NCBI GenBank assembly: GCA_905233945.1 | Contig: CAJOFY010000005.1 | Coordinates: 78,698-142,697, forward strand | Direction: 5' to 3' | Source of the DNA: an uncultured bacterium | GTDB lineage: Bacteria; UBP6; UBA1177 | DNA length: 64,000 nt | Shown: positions 46,616 through 59,573 of the stretch, piece by piece | How positions within the stretch are numbered: position 1 is the first letter of the stretch | Layout of the letters: each line of letters starts with the position of its first letter | Position numbers and translations under genes: made by a program | Notes under the pieces: generated by a model | Seen by the model: only the letters and a program-made list of their open reading frames with translations | What the model was told of the DNA's origin: nothing | Databases searched by the model: none

Positions 46616-47875
46616 TTATTCCGCCTTTTTTACGCAGCGGGTAAAAAAATAGGAAAAATATTTTGTGATCGCAAACACTGACGCATCATCGGCACTGATT
46701 GTCCATACTAATTCCGGATCATCGGACGCAAAGGTGGAAGACAAGAGGGTTTCATCCGTGTCACCGAATTCGCTGTATTTTCCGTCAGGATTTTCCGTAA
46801 GTTTTTCGCAACTGCACTCTTCCAAACTGTTAAATTCCGATGAAAGCTTATTTTCTTTCTCGCTGACTTCGCAGCTGCCGCCCGTGACTGTTCTTGCACA
46901 GTTGCGGATCGTCGTTCTGAGTTCGTCAATTGTCGGAAGTCTCCAGCCTTTCAAGTCGTTTATCTGGAAACTCTCACAATAATTTTTTCCTTCGTCCCAT
47001 GTTCCTCCCAGCGACATTTTTGACCAGTAAAGCCCGGTTGCAGGGTCAAAGCAGGTTTTTTTGCTTGACTGATTGCACTCTTTTATTTCTATTTCTCCGT
47101 TTTCCGGTTTTTCACCTTCCACGCAGCGCACGAAATAAACCGTGTATTTACTTGAAACATCAATGTAAGCAGAGTTGAAATCTATTCTCCATGCATCGTC
47201 GACATCTGCTTCCGACTGCTCAGAAGACGACCACAATGTTTTGCTTATATCGCCCAGTTTGCTGTATTTTCCGCTGAACTCTTCATCAAATTCGCATGAA
47301 CATCCATTTGCATCGGCAACCGAAAGCATGCCCTCGCTCTCGCTGACTTCGCAGCTGCCGCCTGTGGCAGTGATTTTGCAGTTTCTGATCAGAGTCCTGA
47401 GTTCGTCGATTGTCGGAAGCCTCCAGTCTGTTTTTCCCCCTTCTTCAAGATCCTCACAATATTGAACTGCCCTTTCCCAATCCATGTCGTTTTCTGAAAT
47501 TGAAGACCAGACTTTTCCGGTTTTTGAGTCGTGGCACGGAAAAAGGCTTGTCGGACTGCATTCGTAGGGATCGTCCGGATTGACTTCGCCTGTGTCTGAG
47601 TCTGAAGTGTCGGTTTTGTCCTCATCGGACGAAGTATCGCCTGTGTCTGAGTCTGAAGTATCGGTTTTGTCTTCGTCGGACGAAGTATTGCCCGTGTCAG
47701 AATCTTGAGTGTCGGTTTTGTCCTCGTCGGACGAAGTATCGCCTGTGTCAGAATCTGAAGTGCCGGTTTCGTCTGTATCCGGCTGAGTGTCGGAATCACC
47801 ATCTTTTTTTGAGCTGCCGCATGAAATTGTAACAAAAACAAAAATCGTCAGAAAAATAAGAATCAATTTTTTCAT
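46616..47875 (-). CDS. Lipoprotein with tandem DUF1566 domains
   Basis: The signal MKKLILIFLTIFVFVTISC ends in a lipobox. An Asp/Ser/Thr linker of three and a half 17-residue repeats (unit DSDTGDTSSDEDKTDTS) follows. Two DUF1566 domains of about 150 residues each share WRLPTIDELRT(L/T)IRNC, (T/V)TGGSCEVSE and a closing FVRCVE or FTRCVK. DUF1566 is common in surface lipoproteins of delta-type bacteria and has no known activity; its fold is related to formylglycine-generating enzymes and C-type lectins. Length 419. The start follows GGGAGG. Confidence 0.85.
   Translation of the reverse strand: MKKLILIFLTIFVFVTISCGSSKKDGDSDTQPDTDETGTSDSDTGDTSSDEDKTDTQDSDTGNTSSDEDKTDTSDSDTGDTSSDEDKTDTSDSDTGEVNPDDPYECSPTSLFPCHDSKTGKVWSSISENDMDWERAVQYCEDLEEGGKTDWRLPTIDELRTLIRNCKITATGGSCEVSESEGMLSVADANGCSCEFDEEFSGKYSKLGDISKTLWSSSEQSEADVDDAWRIDFNSAYIDVSSKYTVYFVRCVEGEKPENGEIEIKECNQSSKKTCFDPATGLYWSKMSLGGTWDEGKNYCESFQINDLKGWRLPTIDELRTTIRNCARTVTGGSCEVSEKENKLSSEFNSLEECSCEKLTENPDGKYSEFGDTDETLLSSTFASDDPELVWTISADDASVFAITKYFSYFFTRCVKKAE
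47592..47774 (-). repeat. 51-bp tandem repeat encoding the Asp/Ser/Thr linker
   Basis: Copies start at 47592, 47643, 47694 and a truncated one at 47745. They differ at only a few positions, so they expanded recently. Being a multiple of three, copy changes keep the frame. Confidence 0.9.
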
Positions 47876-47989
47876 TTTTACCTCCCAGAAAAGTTCAAAA
47901 GATTATAGTCCGATTTTTTAGAAATGCGATTCTTTTTGTGCTATAAGCGGCTGTTTTATGTTTTTATAAACTTGAAATTGGGGGGAATT

Positions 47990-49516
47990 ATGAAAAAAGT
48001 TTTTCTTAACGGTGAAAATCTCACTATCGATGATGTCGTTTTAGTTGCTAAAGGTCAGGCTGAAGTCGCGATCAACGAAAAGACGCGTGCTAAGATGGCG
48101 AAATGCCGCAAATTTGTCGATTCGATTCTTAAAAATGACAAGGCGGTCTACGGAATCAACACAGGTTTCGGTATTCTGAGCGATGTCAAAGTCGAGCACA
48201 AAGACCTCGAAACTTTGCAAATCAACCTCATCCGCAGCCACGCGATCGGTGTCGGCGCACCTTTCAACAAAGAGACTGTCAGAGCGATTATGCTTCTGCG
48301 TGCAAACGTTCTTGCGAAAGGTTTCAGCGGAATTTCACTTGAGACTTTTGACAAACTTCTTGAACTCCTCAACAAAGACATAATTCCTTTTATCCCGTCG
48401 CAGGGCAGTGTCGGTGCAAGCGGCGACCTCGCTCCTTTGGCTCATCTGGCGATCGTTCTCTGCGGAGAAGGTTTCGTAATGACAGATGAGGGCAAAATGG
48501 TTGAAACAGCTCAAGTTTTCAAGGAAAAAGGTATCAAACCGATAACGCTCAAGGCGAAAGAAGGACTTGCTCTCATTAACGGAACGCAGGTCATGACGGC
48601 TCTCGGCGCTCTCGCAGTCCACAGAGTCCACAACCTTCTTAAACTTGCAGATATCGCGCTTACATCTACAATCGAAGGCATCATGGGAACAGACCGCGCT
48701 TTCGACCAGAAAGTAAATATCGTCCGCGCTCACCCAGGACAGGCGGAAGTTTCAGAAAACGTTCTTAAACTTATCGCTAAATCGGAAATCCGCGAAAGCC
48801 ACCGCAACTGCCCGAAAGTCCAGGATGCATACAGCCTCCGCTGCGCTCCGCAGGTTCACGGCGCGGTTCGTGACGCACTCCGCCACGTCGAAAAAGTCAT
48901 CACGACAGAGCTCAACTCTTCGACTGACAACCCGCTTATTTTCCCCGACGAGAAAGAGACGATCTCTGCCGGAAACTTCCACGGCGAGCCGATCGGACTT
49001 GTTATGGATTACCTTACCGCAGCTGTTTCGGAACTCGGAAGCATTTCTGAAAGAAGGATCGAGCAGCTCATCAACCCCGTTTTCAACCAGGCTCCGGCAT
49101 TTTTGGTTAAAAACAAAGGTCTCAACAGCGGCTTCATGATCGCTCACGTCGCAGCTGCAAGCTTGGCAAGCGAGAACAAAACTCAGTCTTTCCCTGCAAC
49201 AGTCGATTCGATCCCGACATCTGCCGGAAAGGAAGACCACGTCAGCATGGGAACGACAGCTGCAAGAAAGTGCACAGCTGTAGTTGAAAACACCGTTAAA
49301 ATCATCTGCATCGAGCTTCTCACCGCAATGCAGGCGATCGATTTCAGAAAACCGATGAAGGCAGGTGCCGGAATCGAGCCCGTTTACAAACTTATCCGCA
49401 AAGATGTTCCTTTCATGGAAAACGACGCGTTCCTTCACCCGATGTTCATGAACGTTCTCAAGAAGGAATACGAAATCGTCAAAACGGCTGAAAAGGCAGT
49501 CGGCGCTCTCAAATAA
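47990..49516 (+). CDS. hutH: Histidine ammonia-lyase
   Basis: Removes ammonia from histidine to give urocanate, first step of histidine degradation. SVGASGDLAPLAHLA contains the Ala-Ser-Gly triad that forms the MIO cofactor. YGINTGFG, SSTDNPLIFP and the QDAYSLRC-like VQDAYSLRCAPQVHGA are further signatures. At 508 residues it has normal length. ATG 47990 follows GGGGGAATT. No hutU, hutI or hutG adjoins. Its last 28 bp are duplicated at 51866-51893, marking the left edge of an inserted restriction-modification module. Confidence 0.96.
   Translation: MKKVFLNGENLTIDDVVLVAKGQAEVAINEKTRAKMAKCRKFVDSILKNDKAVYGINTGFGILSDVKVEHKDLETLQINLIRSHAIGVGAPFNKETVRAIMLLRANVLAKGFSGISLETFDKLLELLNKDIIPFIPSQGSVGASGDLAPLAHLAIVLCGEGFVMTDEGKMVETAQVFKEKGIKPITLKAKEGLALINGTQVMTALGALAVHRVHNLLKLADIALTSTIEGIMGTDRAFDQKVNIVRAHPGQAEVSENVLKLIAKSEIRESHRNCPKVQDAYSLRCAPQVHGAVRDALRHVEKVITTELNSSTDNPLIFPDEKETISAGNFHGEPIGLVMDYLTAAVSELGSISERRIEQLINPVFNQAPAFLVKNKGLNSGFMIAHVAAASLASENKTQSFPATVDSIPTSAGKEDHVSMGTTAARKCTAVVENTVKIICIELLTAMQAIDFRKPMKAGAGIEPVYKLIRKDVPFMENDAFLHPMFMNVLKKEYEIVKTAEKAVGALK
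49489..49516 (+). repeat. Left copy of the 28-bp direct repeat (hutH 3' end)
   Basis: Identical over 28 bp to 51866-51893. This copy is the final nine codons of hutH (GAAAAGGCAGTCGGCGCTCT core, ending in TAA). Confidence 0.95.
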
Positions 49517-49532
49517 AATAATGAGGAAAAGA

Positions 49533-50306
49533 ATGAGTAATAATGGCGGTTATACCATTGCGGATGAAAATGTTTCTGAAGCTGATCTTCGTAAATTCTA
49601 TAAAAAGGCAAAAGAAGTATTAGAATTAAAAAGCAAAGATCTTGATCTGATTTTTGAAATTGCCCTTGAGAATCGCAAGCTTTTCCCGAATATGAACCTC
49701 AAAGGAAATGATAAAAATCCAAAGAACTATATTGATAGATGGGTTAAAGGCTATAGTGAAGCCAGGAACAATCTCCCGCATAGAAGAATCGCAAAACCCA
49801 AATCTACATGTAACGATCCTGCTATTACGGTGATGGTTCGAGTGGCTCGGAATATGACTGAACAACAGTCAAAAATCGGTGTAAGCAATCACAATTTATT
49901 CATGTCTGCAGAAAACATTCAAGGGAATCTTCTCGAAGAATATATCGCTTTAACAATAAGACCTTATGGATTTTTGTGGTGTAATGGTAATGTGTTGCAC
50001 GCGATTGATTTTTGTAATAGTAATGGTTCGTTTTTTCTCCAAGTTAAAAACAAATCCAACACTGAAAACAGTTCAAGCGATAAAATTAGAAAAGATACCA
50101 AAATTGAAAAATGGTATCGCCTCGGAACAAAAATCTGCAATGGTATCAAAGTTCCAGATTTCAAGTGGGATTATTTAAATGATTTAATTAAAATACATCT
50201 CACAGAGGGTACAAATCTTTCTCCATGCAATATGTCCGAAGAAGATTATCAGAACTTTCTTAAAGATGTCGCTTTGAACAATCATGAACTTATAACAGAT
50301 TTGTAG
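49533..50306 (+). CDS. Type II restriction endonuclease (possibly SinI-like)
   Basis: Expected to cut DNA at the site protected by the neighbouring C5 methyltransferase. ATG 49533 follows GAGGAAAAGA. The 257 residues include ENIQGNLLEEYIALTIRPYGFLWC and a nuclease-type core HAIDFCNSNGSFFLQVKNKSN (about 155-175), which fits a PD-(D/E)xK fold with Gln in place of the second acidic residue. The N-terminal third carries a basic segment (NNLPHRRIAKPKST). Codons are A/T-rich compared with hutH. Assignment rests on the motif and the partner gene; the SinI resemblance is tentative, so the recognition site is unknown. Confidence 0.75.
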   Translation: MSNNGGYTIADENVSEADLRKFYKKAKEVLELKSKDLDLIFEIALENRKLFPNMNLKGNDKNPKNYIDRWVKGYSEARNNLPHRRIAKPKSTCNDPAITVMVRVARNMTEQQSKIGVSNHNLFMSAENIQGNLLEEYIALTIRPYGFLWCNGNVLHAIDFCNSNGSFFLQVKNKSNTENSSSDKIRKDTKIEKWYRLGTKICNGIKVPDFKWDYLNDLIKIHLTEGTNLSPCNMSEEDYQNFLKDVALNNHELITDL

Positions 50307-50336
50307 AGATAGTCTTAAATTCCACCTACAAAAATC

Positions 50337-51761
50337 TTATGAGTTACCTGAATCAAAAAACGAAAGTTGTTCGTAGCTTTGAGTGTTTTCTTTAGCCTTT
50401 TTCAATGCATTATTCATGGCTGCCTGCCAGGTAATATCGTTAGTATTTTTGTATCTGGAATACAAATAACCTTCATATTGTGGTAGTTGCAGACCATTCA
50501 TGTCAGCAATTATAGTTTTAGCAATCGCTTCTCCGAGTTTTATTGGAACAGCATTGCCGATCTGTCTATATTGTTCAAGAATCGAACCGCAGATTTTCCA
50601 ATCATCAGGGAATCCTTGAATGCGGCTGTATTCTTCAACACTCAATGGTCTGTCTTCTGTAGGGTGACAAAGGTCTGTTGCCGGCATTGTAGGATTTGTG
50701 ACCAGTGTCGGAGACGGACGATCCCAGCTTATTCTCCTGAAAAAACCTGTTTTGCCGCCGCCTAATTCCAAATTTCTGCCCATGGCTTCTTTCTGGATTT
50801 CCTTAGGCAGATCTTTCCAATACTGCCCCGCTTTCAGCATACGATAATACTTGAGTCTATTGGGCGGAAATTCAATATAGTGATGTTCTTTGCCTTCTAT
50901 ATCTTCAACTGCTGAAGAAAAAGTGATCCATGATTCTAAGCCGAATTTGCAATCTTGATCATGGGTAGGAGATAAGTAGGGAACTTTTTTATTCCCAAGT
51001 TTCCCTATTATTACTACTCTTTCTCTAATCTGAGGAGCACCAAAATTTGCGGTGTTATAAAGTTCGAAAGAGAGGGTGTAGCCAGCTTTTTTTAAGCGGT
51101 CAAGAATAAGACACATTGCTCCGCCTTTTATGGGCTCTTCGATTTCACCATATGGATAAGGAGCTGACAATAAGCCCCTAACATTTTCAATGACAACATA
51201 AGTAGGAAGAATATCCTCTATAATTTTGATATAACGTAAAAAGACATTTCCTCTATCATCATTAAATGCTCTCCTTGCTCCAGCTGTGCTAAATGCTTGG
51301 CATGGCGGTCCTCCGAAAATAACATCTACCTTTTTGCCTTTTGGTACTTTTGCCAGTTTTAGGATTTCTTCAGCCGAATATTTATTAATGTCACCTATTA
51401 ACGCCATGTCAGGTTTGTTTTTTGCGATTGTCATACGGCAATATTTGTTGAATTCACAAGACAAAACAGCTTTGATTCCTGCGTTCTCCATGCCGATATC
51501 AAGTCCCATTGCTCCAGAAAAGAAGCTGAGGGCAACTATATTCGGAATATTGTCTGATAATCGTTGATGATCATCCGGTTCAATAGATACATCGTATGTT
51601 GCAACATATTCTTTTACAGAATTTGAACGAATCAACCATTGGCTTCCGATTCTATCAGCATAGAGTTTTTCTTCTCTTATCTGTTTTCTTACATACTGAG
51701 GTGTCACTTTAAGTTCATTTGCGACATCCTGAACAGTTAATAAATCAGCAGTTGTTTCCAC
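50337..51761 (-). CDS. DNA (cytosine-5) methyltransferase with N-terminal helix-turn-helix
   Basis: Methylates C5 of cytosine in the site cut by the partner nuclease. Residues 8-55 form an excisionase/MerR-type helix-turn-helix (LTVQDVANELKVTPQYVRKQIREEKLYADRIGSQWLI). The catalytic part follows: motif I LSFFSGAMGLDIGM, IV FGGPPCQAFSTAG with the nucleophile Cys (about 155), VI VIENVRG, VIII APQIRERV, then the target domain and IX-X (RIQGFPDDW; QIGNAVPIKLGEAIA). The start is GTG 51761 after AAGGAGGAGT. It converges on the nuclease gene with 30 bp between stops. The N-terminal domain may repress its own promoter. Confidence 0.92.
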   Translation of the reverse strand: METTADLLTVQDVANELKVTPQYVRKQIREEKLYADRIGSQWLIRSNSVKEYVATYDVSIEPDDHQRLSDNIPNIVALSFFSGAMGLDIGMENAGIKAVLSCEFNKYCRMTIAKNKPDMALIGDINKYSAEEILKLAKVPKGKKVDVIFGGPPCQAFSTAGARRAFNDDRGNVFLRYIKIIEDILPTYVVIENVRGLLSAPYPYGEIEEPIKGGAMCLILDRLKKAGYTLSFELYNTANFGAPQIRERVVIIGKLGNKKVPYLSPTHDQDCKFGLESWITFSSAVEDIEGKEHHYIEFPPNRLKYYRMLKAGQYWKDLPKEIQKEAMGRNLELGGGKTGFFRRISWDRPSPTLVTNPTMPATDLCHPTEDRPLSVEEYSRIQGFPDDWKICGSILEQYRQIGNAVPIKLGEAIAKTIIADMNGLQLPQYEGYLYSRYKNTNDITWQAAMNNALKKAKENTQSYEQLSFFDSGNS

Positions 51762-51865
51762 GGGTCTACTCCTCCTTTCATCTGCGAAACTTTTGACAGA
51801 CCCTTGGTATCAAATAAAAATCCGAATGTCAATTAAAAATTTATCTTTTTTATCGTAAAAGTAGT

Positions 51866-51893
51866 TGAAAAGGCAGTCGGCGCTCTCAAATAA
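51866..51893 (+). repeat. Right copy of the 28-bp direct repeat
   Basis: Identical to 49489-49516. Similarity extends leftward in diverged form: from 51853 it still reads IVKVVEKAVGALK-stop against IVKTAEKAVGALK-stop in hutH. The repeat overlaps the stop of the convergent kinase gene. Confidence 0.95.
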
Positions 51894-52809
51894 TAAAATT
51901 TATCGCATGGTGGATGCAGCTCAGGCGTCCGTTCCCTTCGTAATTCATTAAGATCCCGTCAGTTTCGACGATAACGCTTTCTTCAGTTTCGATCTCTATT
52001 TCTCTGCCTTTTATCGTGTGGATCACCGGCACATCGGTGAGATGACCGTTGAATAAATTGGGAAGTGCCTTGAAAAGCTGTTTCAGAGTCGGTTTTTCGA
52101 CAAACATCGCGTTGAAAATGCCGTCCCGCGGGTCTGCATCGGGGTTCTGGCGGATCCCGCCGCCTGAGTATGGTCCGTTTCCGACATTCATCGTGAAAAG
52201 TCCCGCCTTGAAGCACTCGGTCCCGTCAACTTTCAGCGTGACAGGAACAGGTTTTTGTTTAAAAAGCGCCGCGATCAGTCCGAAAAGATAGTTGAGATGA
52301 TGCGAGCCTATAAACGGTTTCAGCTTGTCGGCATAGACGCATGTCAGCGGGTCCACGCCGTAGCCGATAGAATTGATGAAGTATCTGTGCCGTTCCTCGC
52401 CATTGCTGAAGTAGGTGAGGCATCCGACATCCAGAGGCTGAGGTTTGCCTGCAAAAAAGATGTCGAGTGAACGCCTGTAATTTCTTGTCAGTCCCCAGAA
52501 ACGTCCGAAATCGTTGCCGGTTCCGCGCGAAATGAGGCCGAGCCGGATATTTTTCCGCTTTTCTTCAGGAATTTTTGCCGTCATTATGCCGTTTACAGTC
52601 TCGCTGAGAGTTCCGTCGCCGCCCCAGACCATAATCTGATCATATCCTGATTCGACAAAATCACGGGCAATTTCCGAGGCGTGGCCTTTGTACTCAGTAT
52701 CTTTTGATGTGAAATTTATGCCATGCTCTTCAAGCTGGCGCATCAGATACTGCCGCTGCAGCTTCAGGTGTTTTTTGCCAGATTTCGGATTTATGATGAC
52801 TGCAAGCAT
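51886..52809 (-). CDS. Diacylglycerol kinase catalytic-domain protein (YegS/DgkB-like lipid kinase)
   Basis: Phosphorylates diacylglycerol or a related lipid with ATP. The N-terminus LAVIINPKSGKKHL and the nucleotide motif VWGGDGTLSETVNGI are diagnostic; GLISRGTGNDFGR and NVGNGPYSGGGI follow in the expected order. ATG 52809 is chosen (ribosome site CCGGAG); a TTG at 52827 would add six residues. Length 307. Its stop TGA lies inside the right-hand repeat, which implies that hutH and this gene were directly convergent before the R-M module inserted. Confidence 0.9.
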   Translation of the reverse strand: MLAVIINPKSGKKHLKLQRQYLMRQLEEHGINFTSKDTEYKGHASEIARDFVESGYDQIMVWGGDGTLSETVNGIMTAKIPEEKRKNIRLGLISRGTGNDFGRFWGLTRNYRRSLDIFFAGKPQPLDVGCLTYFSNGEERHRYFINSIGYGVDPLTCVYADKLKPFIGSHHLNYLFGLIAALFKQKPVPVTLKVDGTECFKAGLFTMNVGNGPYSGGGIRQNPDADPRDGIFNAMFVEKPTLKQLFKALPNLFNGHLTDVPVIHTIKGREIEIETEESVIVETDGILMNYEGNGRLSCIHHAINFII

Positions 52810-53004: not shown

Positions 53005-53048
53005 TAAATTTGCATATTTGCTAATTTTTATATTTGAGAGGTGATATT

Positions 53049-53357
53049 TTGAAAAAATTTAAGTTGTGTCTATTAATTGTTTTTGTGATTTTTATTATTG
53101 TTTTACCGGAATTTGCGTTTGCGGCGGCTGACACAAGTGGTATAAAATCGAAATTTCAGGAAATGGCTGACACTGTTTTCGATGTTGCAAGATACATCGG
53201 GATTTACGGCGGGCTCGGCGGGGCGATAGTCTCGCTTCTTTTCAGGTACATCAACAAGGATCAGAACATCTGGTCCGACGCTCTGAAAATTCTCGGTGCG
53301 GGTGCCGGACTTGCCGCGTTTTCGACGATTTTAAGCATTATCGCAGGGTGGATATGA
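53049..53357 (+). CDS. VirB2/TrbC-like pilin subunit of a type IV secretion system
   Basis: Pilin of the conjugation or effector machine. The TTG at 53049 lies six bases after GAGAGGTGAT and gives a signal peptide (KKFKLCLLIVFVIFIIVLPEFAFAAAD) cleaved near AFA-AAD. The mature part has two hydrophobic helices (VARYIGIYGGLGGAIVSLLF; ALKILGAGAGLAAFSTILSIIAGWI) typical of TrbC/VirB2. Length of 102 is usual. It is the first gene of the operon and overlaps the virB3-like gene by four bases. Confidence 0.8.
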   Translation: MKKFKLCLLIVFVIFIIVLPEFAFAAADTSGIKSKFQEMADTVFDVARYIGIYGGLGGAIVSLLFRYINKDQNIWSDALKILGAGAGLAAFSTILSIIAGWI

Positions 53358-53626
53358 AGGTTTTTTCTATTCTCGGAGCAAAACAGGCTTTTATTGACAA
53401 AGGCCAGCTTGCATTGATGACGGTTTTCTTTTTTGCCGGCGCGGTTTTTAAAAACATTTTTCTTCTTCTTGTTTTTCCTGTCGTGATTTTTGCCGCGACT
53501 TTTTTTGTCCGCGAGAAAATTTTTTCGGGAAAAGCGGAGTGGTGGATTTTCGTTCTGAGAATGATGAGCGGCGGCAGGGTTTTTTACTGCCGTCAGTTTA
53601 GGGACAGAATAAGTGTGAAAAAATGA
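53354..53626 (+). CDS. VirB3-like small membrane protein of the T4SS
   Basis: The 90 residues contain two adjacent hydrophobic segments (GQLALMTVFFFAGAVFKNIFLLLVFPVVIFAATFFV), followed by an amphipathic basic tail (WWIFVLRMMSGGRVFYCRQF). Size, topology and position between the VirB2-like pilin and the VirB4 ATPase match VirB3/TrbD. Sequence alone would not identify it. ATG 53354 overlaps the pilin stop, and its own stop overlaps virB4 (ATGA in both cases). Confidence 0.72.
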   Translation: MKVFSILGAKQAFIDKGQLALMTVFFFAGAVFKNIFLLLVFPVVIFAATFFVREKIFSGKAEWWIFVLRMMSGGRVFYCRQFRDRISVKK

Positions 53627-55968
53627 AAAGTATTTTCGAAATGCTGAAAATATGTTCAGTTGAAGGCGATTTTATCCTGACTTCATCGATGCAGCGCTTT
53701 TCTATCTGGGAAGTTGACGGGGCTGACTGTTATTTTTCGGAAGCCTCTCTTGAAGCGGCGGATTCGTTTTTCATGCGGGAGGCACGTGAAGGGAGCGTTG
53801 TCGAATTTTTTTCACTTGTCAGGGAGAAGGATGAAGTCGCAGAAGAGCGTTTCGCTTCCGAAACAAATCCCGTCATAAGGCAGCGCCTCGGTTTTCTCAG
53901 GGAGAACGGAATCAGAAAATGCCGCTCGTTTTTCGCGGTTTCAGACGATCTTCCGAAAAAAGAGTTCCCGAAAGAGGAAATTGATATTCAATATCACAAA
54001 AATCTTGTCCAGAGTTTCGGAATGGGCGCACGCCGCCTCGGTACGGCGGAAATAAAGGAACTTTTATATGAAATGATTTCTTCCGGCGGAGAGATGAAAG
54101 TTCACCCGGAAATGACTGTCCGCGAGGAACTGATTCAGAAACAGTGTTCGGCAAACCCTGAATATTTCAAGGTCGGTGAGACTTTCTGCAAAGTCCTTTC
54201 ACTTAAATTCATGCCGAAAGAGACTCATCCTTTCATGGTTTCGCGCCTTATCGACACTTTTTTGTGCAACTTCACTTTTTCGGTTTCTTTCACCGTGCTT
54301 CCACAGTCGCGTGAGATGCTCTCCCTCGAGGCAAAAGAACGTTTTTATATCGCTACAAGCGGACGTGGTGCGGCTCATAACGCGAAAGAATCTGACGAGC
54401 TGATGAATCTTCTTGCAGCTTCAAGACACAAAATAGGTTTTCTGTCGGCTAAAATCGTGGTTTCCGAAAACGATCTGAGGCTGCTTGAAAAGCGGTGCGA
54501 AGAGCTGATTGTCCTTATGAAAAATTACGGATTTTTCTTTGAAGAGGAGACATGGGGGCATGATCTCGAGTTTTTCAAGTCGCTCCCTTCGCTTATGTCC
54601 CTTTCTGAGCGGCAGCTTCGTGTTTTGAGTGCAAATTTTATTGAGATGATTCCGGCAGCAAGACACGGTCACGGAAACTTCGACGGCAGATTTCCTCTTT
54701 TTTTGAGAAACCGTTTCGGTGAAATATACGGTTTTGATGCCGGTTCGTCAAAGCGAAACAACAAGAACGGTTCCATTTTCGGCTGCTCTGGAAGCGGGAA
54801 ATCAGTGACTGTAAACACTTTGATAGCCCACACTTTTTTCCCGAATATAAACTACGACAAAAATTTTCCCGGAAGGATTTTTATTGTCGATTTCGCAGGT
54901 GCCGAAAACTCGAGCTACCTTAAAATGGTGAAACTTTACGGCGGAATTTTCATTCCTGTCGATGCCGGCGGAAAAATCGTGATAAACCCTTTTCCTGAGC
55001 GGGAAAAAGTTTTTTCTGAAGGCAAGTGGAACTCTTCAGTGCTCAACTTCCTCAATACGATAATGGATCTGATTCTTGAAATCCGCGGGAAAGACATGAA
55101 CTCGGATCTTTACAGAAATATTGTATCAAAGGCGATAAGAAACATGTATCTGGCTGTTGAAGCGCCGGTGCTGGGTGATCTTGTCAACTTTGTTGAAGAC
55201 GAGGATACTCAGAAAGCTGAAGTCATACGCCGGCTGCTGCGCGGTTTCCTTGACGATCCGGTGTCTCACATAATCAACGGAAAATCGACTTTGCAATATG
55301 CCGAAGAACCTTTTGTAATCTACGACTTGCAGGGAATCGGAGGGCTTAGCGAAAAACTGAGGGAGCTTCTTACATTTATTGTCATTCAGGAGGCAAAAAG
55401 AAGCGCGTTTGAAATCACGAACAGTTTCATAGTTTTCGACGAGGCGGCCCAGCTCATCAAAGATCCGCGTCTTGCCGATCTGATGGAGGAACTTTTCGCC
55501 ACGGCGAGAAAGTACAACACCGGTGTCTGGACTGTGACGCAGAATTTTCTCAGTTTCAAAGAGGCCGCTCTTTCTTCAAAAATCAAGATAAATACGACGA
55601 CAACGATATTTTTAAGTCATGCGAACGACGAGGAGGCGAAACGGGTTATTGCCGAGGATTTCGGCCTTAGTGCGGCAGAAAAAGAGGCTTTTGAAAGTCT
55701 GAGGACCGTGAAAGGGGAGTATTCGACAGCTCTTTTCAGAACGCAGATCGGGGCAAATCTAGAACCGGAAGTCGTCAGAATCGAGCTTTCTCCTTTTGAT
55801 TACGCCGTTGCGACAAGCGACAAGGAGGAAAACAGGCTTCTTGCAAAATTTGCCGAAGTCAAAGGGCTTAACCTTGTAAACGCCTGTGCCGAAGCGGCGA
55901 TGCTCGCATATAAAAAGAACATGTTTGTCATTGACGCCGTGAAAGATTTTTTAAGGGGAAGGATATGA
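53623..55968 (+). CDS. VirB4/TraC-family ATPase of the T4SS
   Basis: Powers pilus assembly and substrate transfer; the hallmark protein of all type IV secretion systems. Walker A is FGCSGSGKSVTVNTLIAH (about residue 386) and Walker B is SFIVFDEAAQLIKDP (about 600). Between and after these are VDFAGAENSSYLKMVKLYGG, ATARKYNTGVWTVTQNF and FLSHANDEEA, all in the family order. The N-terminal half is the less conserved CagE-TrbE-VirB-like domain. Length of 781 is normal. No VirD4 coupling protein or VirB11 ATPase is found in the window. Confidence 0.93.
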   Translation: MKSIFEMLKICSVEGDFILTSSMQRFSIWEVDGADCYFSEASLEAADSFFMREAREGSVVEFFSLVREKDEVAEERFASETNPVIRQRLGFLRENGIRKCRSFFAVSDDLPKKEFPKEEIDIQYHKNLVQSFGMGARRLGTAEIKELLYEMISSGGEMKVHPEMTVREELIQKQCSANPEYFKVGETFCKVLSLKFMPKETHPFMVSRLIDTFLCNFTFSVSFTVLPQSREMLSLEAKERFYIATSGRGAAHNAKESDELMNLLAASRHKIGFLSAKIVVSENDLRLLEKRCEELIVLMKNYGFFFEEETWGHDLEFFKSLPSLMSLSERQLRVLSANFIEMIPAARHGHGNFDGRFPLFLRNRFGEIYGFDAGSSKRNNKNGSIFGCSGSGKSVTVNTLIAHTFFPNINYDKNFPGRIFIVDFAGAENSSYLKMVKLYGGIFIPVDAGGKIVINPFPEREKVFSEGKWNSSVLNFLNTIMDLILEIRGKDMNSDLYRNIVSKAIRNMYLAVEAPVLGDLVNFVEDEDTQKAEVIRRLLRGFLDDPVSHIINGKSTLQYAEEPFVIYDLQGIGGLSEKLRELLTFIVIQEAKRSAFEITNSFIVFDEAAQLIKDPRLADLMEELFATARKYNTGVWTVTQNFLSFKEAALSSKIKINTTTTIFLSHANDEEAKRVIAEDFGLSAAEKEAFESLRTVKGEYSTALFRTQIGANLEPEVVRIELSPFDYAVATSDKEENRLLAKFAEVKGLNLVNACAEAAMLAYKKNMFVIDAVKDFLRGRI

Positions 55969-56858
55969 ATTTCAATATTTCCTACAACCCTAAAACACTT
56001 CTTGAATCAGCGGGTGTCGGCTGGCTCTGGAGCATAGTCTTCATCGTGATTTCAATCGGGCTTACGATAAGTTTTGTGACTGAAGTCTTCAAAATCCAGA
56101 AGTCCGAAAAACCCGATTTCTTCGGTGTCGCATGGAAAGGGGTGCTTATAATTCTGTTGTACATTTATCTGCCTGATTTTATCGAAAAAATAATGCTTGT
56201 CACATACGATTTTCCGGTAGTAGCCGAGCTTGACGCGGAGTTTTTCAAGGCTTTTTCCCTTTATTCGTCGAACCTTTCGATGATTCCTGGATTTTCCGGA
56301 AGTGTTCCGGAATCGTGTCCGCAGTTCGCCGACCCCCTTCTGGGAGAGGCCGGGACGGCATTCGTAACATCGTTTTACTTCCAGTATTTTGCCAGACTTT
56401 CTGTTTTTTTTCTCATGTTTTTTGTCTGGAGTGCGAAAGAGATACTTTTTTCATATGCATGGGGAACTCTGATGGCGCTCAACATGGTGGGACTCTGCTT
56501 CGCTCTGGTCTTCCCGGCCTTTCCGAACCGGGGTTTCGGCTCGGTAGGAAGTTTTTTCCGTTCCGTTGCTGTTTTTGCCCTCTGGCCTGTGCTTTACGCC
56601 GTTTTTATCTTCATTACGGGTAAGGCGCAGGTCGAAATCATGAAACTCGCTTCAGAAATAGGTGCCTGTCCTTACAGTTTCAGGATAGACCGTGATACTG
56701 TGACTGTTGTTTCCGGGCTCGTTTTCATGGGGCTCGGAATTGCCGGAATTCCTTTCATAGCCGCCAAGACAGCAGGTTCCGAGCAGCTTAAAAGCACGGT
56801 TTTAAACATAAAGACAATTGCTTCGGCTCGTATTGACCGTTACAGGGAGAGATTATGA
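55965..56858 (+). CDS. VirB6/TrbL-like polytopic membrane protein of the T4SS
   Basis: The 297 residues have about six membrane helices: WLWSIVFIVISIGLTISFVTEVF, WKGVLIILLYIYLPDF, LSVFFLMFFVWSAKEILFSYAWGTLMALNMVGLCFALVF, VAVFALWPVLYAVFIFITG and VVSGLVFMGLGIAGIPFIAA. A central Trp-containing block between helices fits the TrbL/VirB6 superfamily, which forms the inner-membrane part of the channel. The call relies on topology and position after virB4. Four-base overlaps join it to both neighbours. Confidence 0.7.
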   Translation: MNFNISYNPKTLLESAGVGWLWSIVFIVISIGLTISFVTEVFKIQKSEKPDFFGVAWKGVLIILLYIYLPDFIEKIMLVTYDFPVVAELDAEFFKAFSLYSSNLSMIPGFSGSVPESCPQFADPLLGEAGTAFVTSFYFQYFARLSVFFLMFFVWSAKEILFSYAWGTLMALNMVGLCFALVFPAFPNRGFGSVGSFFRSVAVFALWPVLYAVFIFITGKAQVEIMKLASEIGACPYSFRIDRDTVTVVSGLVFMGLGIAGIPFIAAKTAGSEQLKSTVLNIKTIASARIDRYRERL

Positions 56859-57592
56859 AAAAAGATGATTCTTCAAAATTTTTCGAGACGATAAAGTACC
56901 GCGACATTGAAAAAATCAGGAAATTTTCGCGGATACTTTCATTAGTTTTCTGCTTTATGATGTTTATTGTTGCTGTTTCCGCGATTCTTTTCGCATGGTC
57001 GATGACTATGAGACCGACTCCCGTCATAGCTTTTGACAAAGAGGGGAAAAGGACAGTTTTTTACGGCAGCGAGACGCTTGAAACCGCTACAAATCAGGTC
57101 AGGATACAGCGCTTCATTTCTGATTTTATCGGTAAGTTCGACGGCGTGAGCCCAAATATCGACGAGGATTTGAAGGAAGCCTACAACATGCTCACACCGA
57201 AATTCAGGCAGATTCTTCTCGACAAGTCTGTTCACAACGAAAAAATAGAGATGTGGAAAAACAGGAATTTCAAAACAGTTTTCAAACTGACAAAACTGAA
57301 AATCGTAAAAGGAAGTTTTGCTGTCGGCTCTTCAGTCACAGTTGAAGGGCTCGGCGAGATGACTTTCGGAAATGCAGTCGATTACTCGGGTGAAAACGAG
57401 AAGAAAACGAGTTTTGTCTGGTTTTCAGCACTTCTTCTGGTTGTTCCCGTCTCTCTTGATCTCTCTCCAGACGGGCTTCTCGTCGATTTTTACGCAGGAA
57501 AAAGTTTCTCTGATTTCAGGGAACTCAGGGCATATCTTACGGAAAACAATACGGAGTATCTCCTTGAGGGGGAAAAAGAGCTGTTTGAATGA
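56855..57592 (+). CDS. VirB8/TraE-like bitopic assembly factor of the T4SS
   Basis: A short cytoplasmic start, one membrane helix (ILSLVFCFMMFIVAVSAILFAW) and a periplasmic domain of about 190 residues beginning MTMRPTPVIAFDKEGKRTVFYG. That layout resembles VirB8, TraE and TrbF, where an NTF2-like fold nucleates the complex (the block RIQRFISDFIGKFDGVSPN followed by AYNMLTPKFRQILL is compatible). Length 245. It sits between VirB6-like and VirB9-like genes, as in many systems. Overlaps of four bases at both ends. Confidence 0.7.
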   Translation: MKKDDSSKFFETIKYRDIEKIRKFSRILSLVFCFMMFIVAVSAILFAWSMTMRPTPVIAFDKEGKRTVFYGSETLETATNQVRIQRFISDFIGKFDGVSPNIDEDLKEAYNMLTPKFRQILLDKSVHNEKIEMWKNRNFKTVFKLTKLKIVKGSFAVGSSVTVEGLGEMTFGNAVDYSGENEKKTSFVWFSALLLVVPVSLDLSPDGLLVDFYAGKSFSDFRELRAYLTENNTEYLLEGEKELFE

Positions 57593-58536
57593 GTAAGGTT
57601 CTAATTTTATTGATTTTTTTGCTTGCTTTTGATGTCTACGGAAGAATTCCGGAAAGTGAAATAGAAAAAGAGAAGTTCATTCCGATTGCCGAAAAAGTTG
57701 CCGTAATAACTATACACAACAGCGATACGGTGATTTACAGAACCGTCAATATCGCACTGGGCGAAGTTTTTGTCTTCGAGTTTCCCGAAAATATTTCGCT
57801 TACCGAAACTCCGACAGTGGGCGACGCCGGACTTCTCAAAATCGAAGTCGAGACGGAGCCTCTGAAGATGAAAGTGTGGGGGCTCATGTTCAGCGAAGCA
57901 CCGAACGAGTCATTGATGTACGGTATCAGCTCCAATGTTCAGTTTAAAATAAATTCAGGGCAGGCATTCATCTTCAACTTTGTCATCAGTCCTTCAGCTG
58001 AAGCGGGCAACAGGATAATTTTCTCGTATCCTGAGTGGGAAAATTCCAACAAAGCGGTCAACAAGCATCTGGAAAAACTGAGGAAAGAACTTGAAGAAAA
58101 GTATGAGAAGCGGATGAAGGATATAAAAAAAGAGATCGACAGAAACATGATAGGGATGATGGCAAAGTCTTTCAGCGAGTTCTTCCAGTGCAGCAGCTAT
58201 TCAGCCAGAACAGAGGAAGATCTTGTCTTTCTGCGGAGCGACAGAATCTGCAAAATCGGCAAAGACGCCCTTGTGACAGTCAATTTTTCTGTAAAAAACC
58301 GTTACAGGCAGCGTTTTCACATCGAATCGGTGAAAATTTATTCGACAAAAGGGGGAAAGGTCGAAATCGACAACGCGCAGTATCACATCGACAAGTTCTC
58401 GATGCAGTTCGACGAGATTGTGAGCGGCGGTATCGCCTTTAAAATAAGTGATGATGACTATTCCCGCGAATACATAATCGAAGTGAATGAAAGTGCAGGA
58501 AAGAAGAGAAAACTGGAACTGAAGGTGTCGTTCTGA
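57589..58536 (+). CDS. Exported protein in VirB9/TraK position of the T4SS
   Basis: A signal peptide (MSKVLILLIFLLAFDVYGR) leads a 315-residue beta-rich protein. The first 140 residues (VAVITIHNSDTVIYRTVNIALGEVFVFEFPENIS...) resemble a VirB9/TraK beta domain. A charged helical insert follows (LEKLRKELEEKYEKRMKDIKKEIDR), and then a second beta domain. By order it should be the outer-membrane-complex partner of the VirB10-like protein. Sequence support is weak; the helical insert is unlike classical VirB9. Confidence 0.55.
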   Translation: MSKVLILLIFLLAFDVYGRIPESEIEKEKFIPIAEKVAVITIHNSDTVIYRTVNIALGEVFVFEFPENISLTETPTVGDAGLLKIEVETEPLKMKVWGLMFSEAPNESLMYGISSNVQFKINSGQAFIFNFVISPSAEAGNRIIFSYPEWENSNKAVNKHLEKLRKELEEKYEKRMKDIKKEIDRNMIGMMAKSFSEFFQCSSYSARTEEDLVFLRSDRICKIGKDALVTVNFSVKNRYRQRFHIESVKIYSTKGGKVEIDNAQYHIDKFSMQFDEIVSGGIAFKISDDDYSREYIIEVNESAGKKRKLELKVSF

Positions 58537-59573
58537 TGGAAAAAAACGAAAAATCTCCTTTGGAAATGCTTGCCGGAGAGCGGAAAAGTACAGAGCTGCC
58601 GCCCGTTTCAACTGAAAGGCAGCCGGGGAAATACGACGGAACGCGGAGAAAAGTCATGTTTTATGCGGTGCTTTTCGGTTTGATCGGCGTAGCGCTTGTT
58701 TTTACGGCAGTTGCTTTCGGCGGCGGAAATCGTGAGAAAGAAGTTCATGACGAAGTGAAATTCAACGACTTCAGCGAGCTGGCACGCGGAAGAGTTGTCG
58801 GAGACATAAAATCGGCGATGAATAAATCGATATCTTCTAAAAATCATGTTCCTGAATCGGAGGGAAAACACGCCGAAGCTCCTACAGATGCGGCTTTGCC
58901 GAAGAAAAAAAACAAAAACGAAGAGAAGGACAGGGAGATACTTGAGACTTACGCCAGAATGAGCGATGCAGCCGCTGAGAGCGGCATTCATAGCGGATAC
59001 AGAAGGCGTTTCGTTCCGGGCGGGGAAGGCTCCGGAGGGGGAGTTTTCGTCAAAGGAAAAAAAGAGAAAAACGAAAAAGAAAAGATTTTTGCGCTGCACG
59101 ATGTCAAAGTGAAAGTGAAGCTCGATTTTTCAATCCGCTCAACGGCGCAGTCCACTGTTGTAGCCACTGTTCTTGAGGAAATCGGCGAGATTCCGAAAGG
59201 GGCTAAGTTTTACGGTGCGGCAAAGAGTTTCGTCAACAAGCGGACACAGCTTGCATTCTCAAAACTCATAATCGGTGCGGACGAGTTTTCTGTCAAAGGT
59301 TTTGCCGTATCAGGGAAAGATCCAGGGATAGAATCCGAGGTGACCGATATTTCAGGAGAGAATATCAAATCTGAAGTCAGGCAGGGGCTTACGAAAACCG
59401 CAGGAGCCGTAGTCACAAGGCTTGCCGGAAGTGTCGGCAGTACAGCAGGGACAACAGCGGCAAACACGGTAAATCCGGCAACTTCCGAACTGGAAAAGCA
59501 GGAGGAGACAAACAAAATGAAGCAGGAATACAGAGTTCCTGCCGGAACATCTTTTTTTGTTTATCTTGAGTAG
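58536..59573 (+). CDS. VirB10/TrbI/TraB-like protein of the T4SS
   Basis: Spans the periplasm between inner and outer membrane. A cytoplasmic basic start is followed by one membrane helix (VMFYAVLFGLIGVALVFTAVAFGG), a long Lys/Glu/Pro-rich linker and the C-terminal beta domain. That domain has IRSTAQSTVVATVLEEIGEIPKGAKFYGAAKSF, a middle antenna-like stretch (LTKTAGAVVTRLAGSVGSTAGTTAANT) and the closing YRVPAGTSFFVYLE, all in VirB10/TrbI order. Length 345. It overlaps the previous gene by one base. Confidence 0.82.
   Translation: MEKNEKSPLEMLAGERKSTELPPVSTERQPGKYDGTRRKVMFYAVLFGLIGVALVFTAVAFGGGNREKEVHDEVKFNDFSELARGRVVGDIKSAMNKSISSKNHVPESEGKHAEAPTDAALPKKKNKNEEKDREILETYARMSDAAAESGIHSGYRRRFVPGGEGSGGGVFVKGKKEKNEKEKIFALHDVKVKVKLDFSIRSTAQSTVVATVLEEIGEIPKGAKFYGAAKSFVNKRTQLAFSKLIIGADEFSVKGFAVSGKDPGIESEVTDISGENIKSEVRQGLTKTAGAVVTRLAGSVGSTAGTTAANTVNPATSELEKQEETNKMKQEYRVPAGTSFFVYLE

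Follow-up and report, generated by a model that had tools for sequence, protein, structure and literature searches.

Type II restriction-modification (R-M) systems of the SinI/AvaII family act on GGWCC sites. Insertion of R-M genes with long target duplication was reportedly found by Nobusato et al. in 2000 and Furuta et al. in 2010 (Kobayashi group). Such events have been described mainly from Helicobacter genome pairs, and we know of no settled mechanism for them. The insertion of R-M genes with long target duplication is described in PMC3874152, PMC3031569 and PMC1643837, and the size of the duplication is of the order of 100 bp (PMC3874152).

In this study, we analysed a 64-kb window, meaning the whole stretch of DNA at its full length, from a 2.65-Mb draft genome, the one genome of its species in our sample, and compared it with 14 congeners. 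An R-M module lies between hutH and a lipid kinase gene. We suggest, with a probability of about 0.74, that it was inserted there with a 42-bp target duplication, which left one copy at each end; this is a joint figure for the whole reading, including the horizontal acquisition of the module.

The repeat and the empty sites

The site is composed of the following features.

47990-49516, + strand: hutH, histidine ammonia-lyase, intact, left of the insert (Pfam Lyase_aromatic 1.7e-194; TIGR01225 above cut-off)
49475-49516, + strand: left copy of the presumed duplicated target, 42 bp, the working hutH 3' end
49517-51851: R-M module, apparently inserted, 2335 bp, 37% GC, absent from the 18 other family genomes searched
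51852-51893, + strand: right copy of the presumed duplicated target, 42 bp, adjoining native downstream DNA and no longer part of hutH
51886-52809, - strand: YegS/DAGK-type lipid kinase gene (TIGR00147 above cut-off; PF00781), in the same arrangement in congeners

Exact copies of the 28-bp direct repeat TGAAAAGGCAGTCGGCGCTCTCAAATAA lie at 49489-49516 and 51866-51893, as the preliminary description of this DNA had it. A third site was not found in the 64-kb window when up to three mismatches were allowed, and the number of such repeats expected by chance was 0 (100 shuffles). No other exact direct repeat in the window is as long, and the others of at least 17 bp lie mostly within repetitive genes. 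About 190 kb of congener loci surrounding hutH and other R-M genes were scanned for exact direct repeats of at least 18 bp with a spacing of 0.5-9 kb, and one was found, with a length of 21 bp.

The target duplication had been given a length of 28 bp. This holds for the exact part but not for the extent, as the homology of the two copies covers 42 bp (49475-49516 and 51852-51893) and ends sharply at 51852. The copies are no longer identical; today they agree at 37 of the 42 positions, and the five differences, which bear on how alike the copies were at insertion, all fall within the first 14 bp. The chance of such clustering, calculated by hand from the hypergeometric distribution, was about 0.002, or about 0.007 when the part overlapping the kinase gene was excluded. 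The right copy, earlier described as a diverged extension of the hutH C-terminus, reads IVKVVEKAVGALK-stop where hutH has IVKTAEKAVGALK. It also overlaps the stop of the convergent kinase gene, as had been noticed: this gene starts with an ATG at 52809, in a frame open to 52827, and ends at 51886, inside the right copy.

The preliminary description had placed hutH directly against the kinase gene in the ancestral order. Nine module-free congeners (G001, G003, G005, G006, G008, G011, G012, G013, G014) bear this out, since a single copy of the repeat joins hutH to the kinase gene in all of them and two copies were found in none (0/9). Their junction reads ...CTCAAATAATAAAATTTATCGC..., where the hutH end ...CTCAAATAA passes straight into the kinase 3' end TAAAATTTATCGC.... 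The hutH product is 98-99% identical in amino acids in nine congeners with a full-length gene. hutH also adjoins kinase sequence in the more distant G004 and G010, and in G009 the kinase gene is lost and a lipoprotein gene adjoins hutH.

The ancestral hutH and kinase genes were convergent with a tail-to-tail overlap of 8 bp (TCAAATAA). Any insertion there that lacked a duplication would therefore truncate one of the two. At the query site, the left copy sits on native hutH and the right copy on native kinase DNA, with every target base retained. Both neighbours are undamaged because the duplicated stretch spans their overlap. The right copy had been taken for the original hutH end; it does adjoin native DNA, but the left copy still works as the end of hutH. 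This question is better reframed, as both copies derive from the original under target duplication.

Other features were observed around the site. A DUF1566-type lipoprotein gene upstream of hutH (46616-47875) is absent from most congeners, and no duplication flanks it. In G013, an AbiE pair occupies the same gap upstream of hutH. A candidate duplication of the hutH leader beside this AbiE pair was rejected, being a promoter-like sequence common to the lipoprotein gene of the window (47889-47940). Beyond the kinase gene, a type IV secretion cluster (53034-59573), including a VirB4-like ATPase gene (53623-55968), is conserved in many congeners. An Rfam search of the region returned no family.

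The restriction-modification genes and their distribution

The module holds two genes, tail to tail, and the upstream signals of M.

49533-50306, + strand: R, SinI/AvaII-type restriction endonuclease, 257 aa (PF09570 4.7e-29; PADLOC REase_II; PDB 6g3b AvaII 1.5e-23)
50337-51761, - strand: M, C5-cytosine DNA methyltransferase, 474 aa (PF00145 1.1e-62; PF12728 1.5e-8; TIGR00675)
51762-51803, - strand: AGACCC/GGGTCT inverted repeat on either side of the M ribosome site (arms 51798-51803 and 51762-51767)
51827-51832, - strand: TTGACA, candidate -35 of an M promoter with a weak -10, from sequence inference, 19 bp from the right copy

The composition of the module is foreign, which suggests that it was horizontally acquired, as part of the reading given above. 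The GC content is 37.0% in the module, compared with 46% in the window and 49% in both hutH and the kinase gene, and the GC3 values are 31% for R and M, 54% for hutH and 56% for the kinase gene. R and M have codon-usage scores of -0.18 and -0.13, below those of all 29 neighbouring genes used as the reference (mean 0.19, minimum -0.01). The module had been described as A/T-rich, and both GC content and codon usage agree with this. No integrase, transposase, IS or recombinase gene was found inside the insert, again as described, and its ends carry no terminal inverted repeats.

The catalytic residues of AvaII are E123, D147, Q161 and K163 (PMC7337904), and they align with E, D, Q and K in R (E/D/Q-x-K). 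R thus has the active site of a PD-(D/E)XK endonuclease of the SinI/AvaII family, and the adjoining M is its cognate C5 methyltransferase (PF00145, TIGR00675). The pair would methylate and cut GGWCC-like sites. GGWCC is under-represented in the query genome, but to the same degree in relatives without the module, so that its frequency carries no signal.

The ATG of R at 49533, in a frame open from 49521, lies 16 nt downstream of the hutH stop, and a GAGG ribosome site is found just past this stop. As the promoter scan upstream of R gave nothing recognisable and the start is so close to the hutH stop, R is probably expressed by read-through from hutH. Among the R homologues, some have their own AT-rich, promoter-like upstream region. 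M appears to be expressed from its own promoter/operator, kept in its upstream region, and its N-terminal HTH_17 domain looks regulatory. An inverted repeat is present at the same place in all seven of the closest M genes, where its arms have changed but mostly still match (GGGTAT/ATACCC and TGGTC/GACCA among the altered pairs). Repeats with mostly matching arm changes of the GGGTCTAT/ATAGACCC type surround the M ribosome site in loci L070-L073, L075 and L076, and the inverted repeat is missing in five more distant plasmid homologues. RNA folding of the query repeat gave z = -3.1. Judging from the sequence, the AGACCC/GGGTCT repeat is probably either an M operator bound by the HTH domain or a 5' hairpin of the M mRNA.

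R had no match in the other 18 family genomes (19 were searched, including the query), and M had distant C5 methyltransferase matches only. The closest relatives of the module are scattered over Actinomyces, Lachnospiraceae and plasmids: the M of Actinomyces marseillensis shows 84% identity, and those of scattered Bacillota and one Riflebacteria record show 59-74%. A close M is carried by 2 of 397 Lachnospiraceae-type genomes, one of which is the query genome, and the spread is therefore sporadic. Homologous R-M pairs occur on unrelated chromosomes and plasmids, and more distant R and M are found together on plasmids. The close M of Actinomyces and of one Clostridiaceae genome has a TdeIII-type R as its partner instead, showing partner swapping between SinI-type and TdeIII-type R around one M lineage. 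The 84% M and a 59% M relative lie next to the TdeIII-type, not SinI-type, endonuclease at L070 7818-8693 and L075 7449-8210. Around the R-M homologues of Actinomyces, Lachnospiraceae and Clostridiaceae, there are no flanking direct repeats.

The origin of the two copies

The footprint at this site, with single-copy empty sites, flanking direct copies and no lost target bases around R-M genes without IS, transposase, integrase or terminal inverted repeats, is that of insertion with long target duplication. It supports the mode of the Kobayashi group, to which the preliminary description had compared the locus, though displacement of an older hutH tail leaves the same footprint. The duplication of 42 bp is below the typical size and above the usual duplications made by transposases (size scale from PMC3874152). 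We propose that a staggered or fork-associated break would have taken up the foreign DNA by illegitimate joining, and that the filling-in of this break would have duplicated 42 bp of the target. Insertions that spared both neighbouring genes would have been kept, and the redundant right copy would have drifted afterwards. Measured against the allele of G011, the closest relative, one position is changed in the left copy (41/42) and four in the right copy (38/42), all of them transitions; the excess in the right copy is as would be expected for the drift of a non-coding copy after loss of function.

The sequences of the copies also contain matches to other congeners. Three differences of the right copy match the hutH allele of G005 (13/14 over the variable part), and at the left end 49474 A and 49480 C are also the bases of G003/G013, one of these being a position that differs between the copies. 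This hints at recombination between alleles, and because of these matches one-sided homology (homology-facilitated illegitimate) recombination without any target duplication stays a rival, which we consider unlikely but worth weighing. The donor would have been a relative with R-M genes behind hutH. A homologous crossover inside hutH, followed by an illegitimate join 42 bp before the old hutH stop, would have displaced the old tail, so that the right copy would be native and the left tail the donor's. The two copies do look like different natural alleles (37/42), and homology-facilitated tail displacement has been put forward to explain orphaned 3' ends at Vibrio T6SS and Rhs loci (PMC5361080). 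As in those immunity arrays and Rhs loci, new genes here follow an intact gene and are followed by an orphaned copy of its 3' end. Unlike them, the tail is just 42 bp and the left end is not clearly of a donor type: it is the left copy, not the right, that is nearer to G011, and there is no clear breakpoint near the end of hutH. A donor carrying hutH with R-M genes was not found in the genus, and an earlier insertion event would still be required.

Insertion with target duplication is preferred here, and a second R-M insertion in the genus shows that duplication is no general rule there. In G011, a module made of a tandem C5 methyltransferase pair and an HNH endonuclease gene (M-M-R) lies between yitT and a conserved downstream region (L077 9324-12497), with empty sites in several congeners; this R-M insertion has no target duplication, just a short replacement. 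In G002 (L079 5569-5609 and 7180-7220) and G012 (L113), the 3' end of a 104-aa gene is repeated over about 41 bp. The repeat adjoins a YhcG/DUF1016 nuclease gene, with R-M genes next in G002 and GmrSD in G012. G007, G003 and G000 have one copy of this sequence in differing contexts. That the genus possesses a mechanism for placing defence modules at gene 3' ends with a nearly constant duplication of about 41-42 bp, and that the hutH and G002/G012 loci are both products of it, seems very doubtful.

A mobile element moved in trans by a recombinase, either making long target duplications or having its attachment site in the hutH 3' end, is also highly improbable. The clean ends, the position at a gene 3' end, the absence of lost bases and the G002/G012 repeat, which copies the 3' end of a different gene next to defence genes, would fit such an element. 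However, the G002/G012 island is composite and its history is another one, the sole other copy of the hutH repeat is the duplicate itself, and the HTH_17 domain, regulatory in appearance, is also present in M homologues elsewhere. A transposon or integrase origin is unlikely because the segment has no such gene, no recombinase of its own and no inverted ends. The genome is a draft of 56 contigs, so that a mis-join might be suspected behind the repeat, but the module and both flanks lie deep inside a 158-kb contig. A mis-join through the exact 28-mer could not have made the right copy because the right junction, between the module and the 42-bp tail, is away from the edge of the 28-mer, and the probability of an assembly artefact is close to negligible.

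Comparison with known systems

This locus offers an independent, clean case of a type of event that is already known, in another lineage, with nine empty sites and a complete anatomy. It illustrates how an insertion of this type can do no harm, since both ends of an overlapping convergent gene pair are restored by the duplication. Strain sequences make the question of duplication or tail displacement testable.

Like other Type II R-M systems of the SinI/AvaII family, the module combines a PF09570/AvaII match and the catalytic residues with an adjoining C5 methyltransferase, and a SinI/AvaII-type R also lies beside a C5 methyltransferase on plasmids of lactobacillus, Treponema and Pseudomonas. 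It differs from other systems of the family in that R abuts hutH without a recognisable promoter, and its specificity and activity are predicted.

The lineage differs from that of the original Helicobacter comparison by the Kobayashi group, and the duplication is 42 bp against about 100 bp. The copies here have already diverged, and the target lies where two convergent genes overlap. In other respects, this locus resembles the cases of that group: without a transposase, R-M genes are present in one genome and absent in its relatives, a long direct repeat flanks them, and the empty site holds a single copy.
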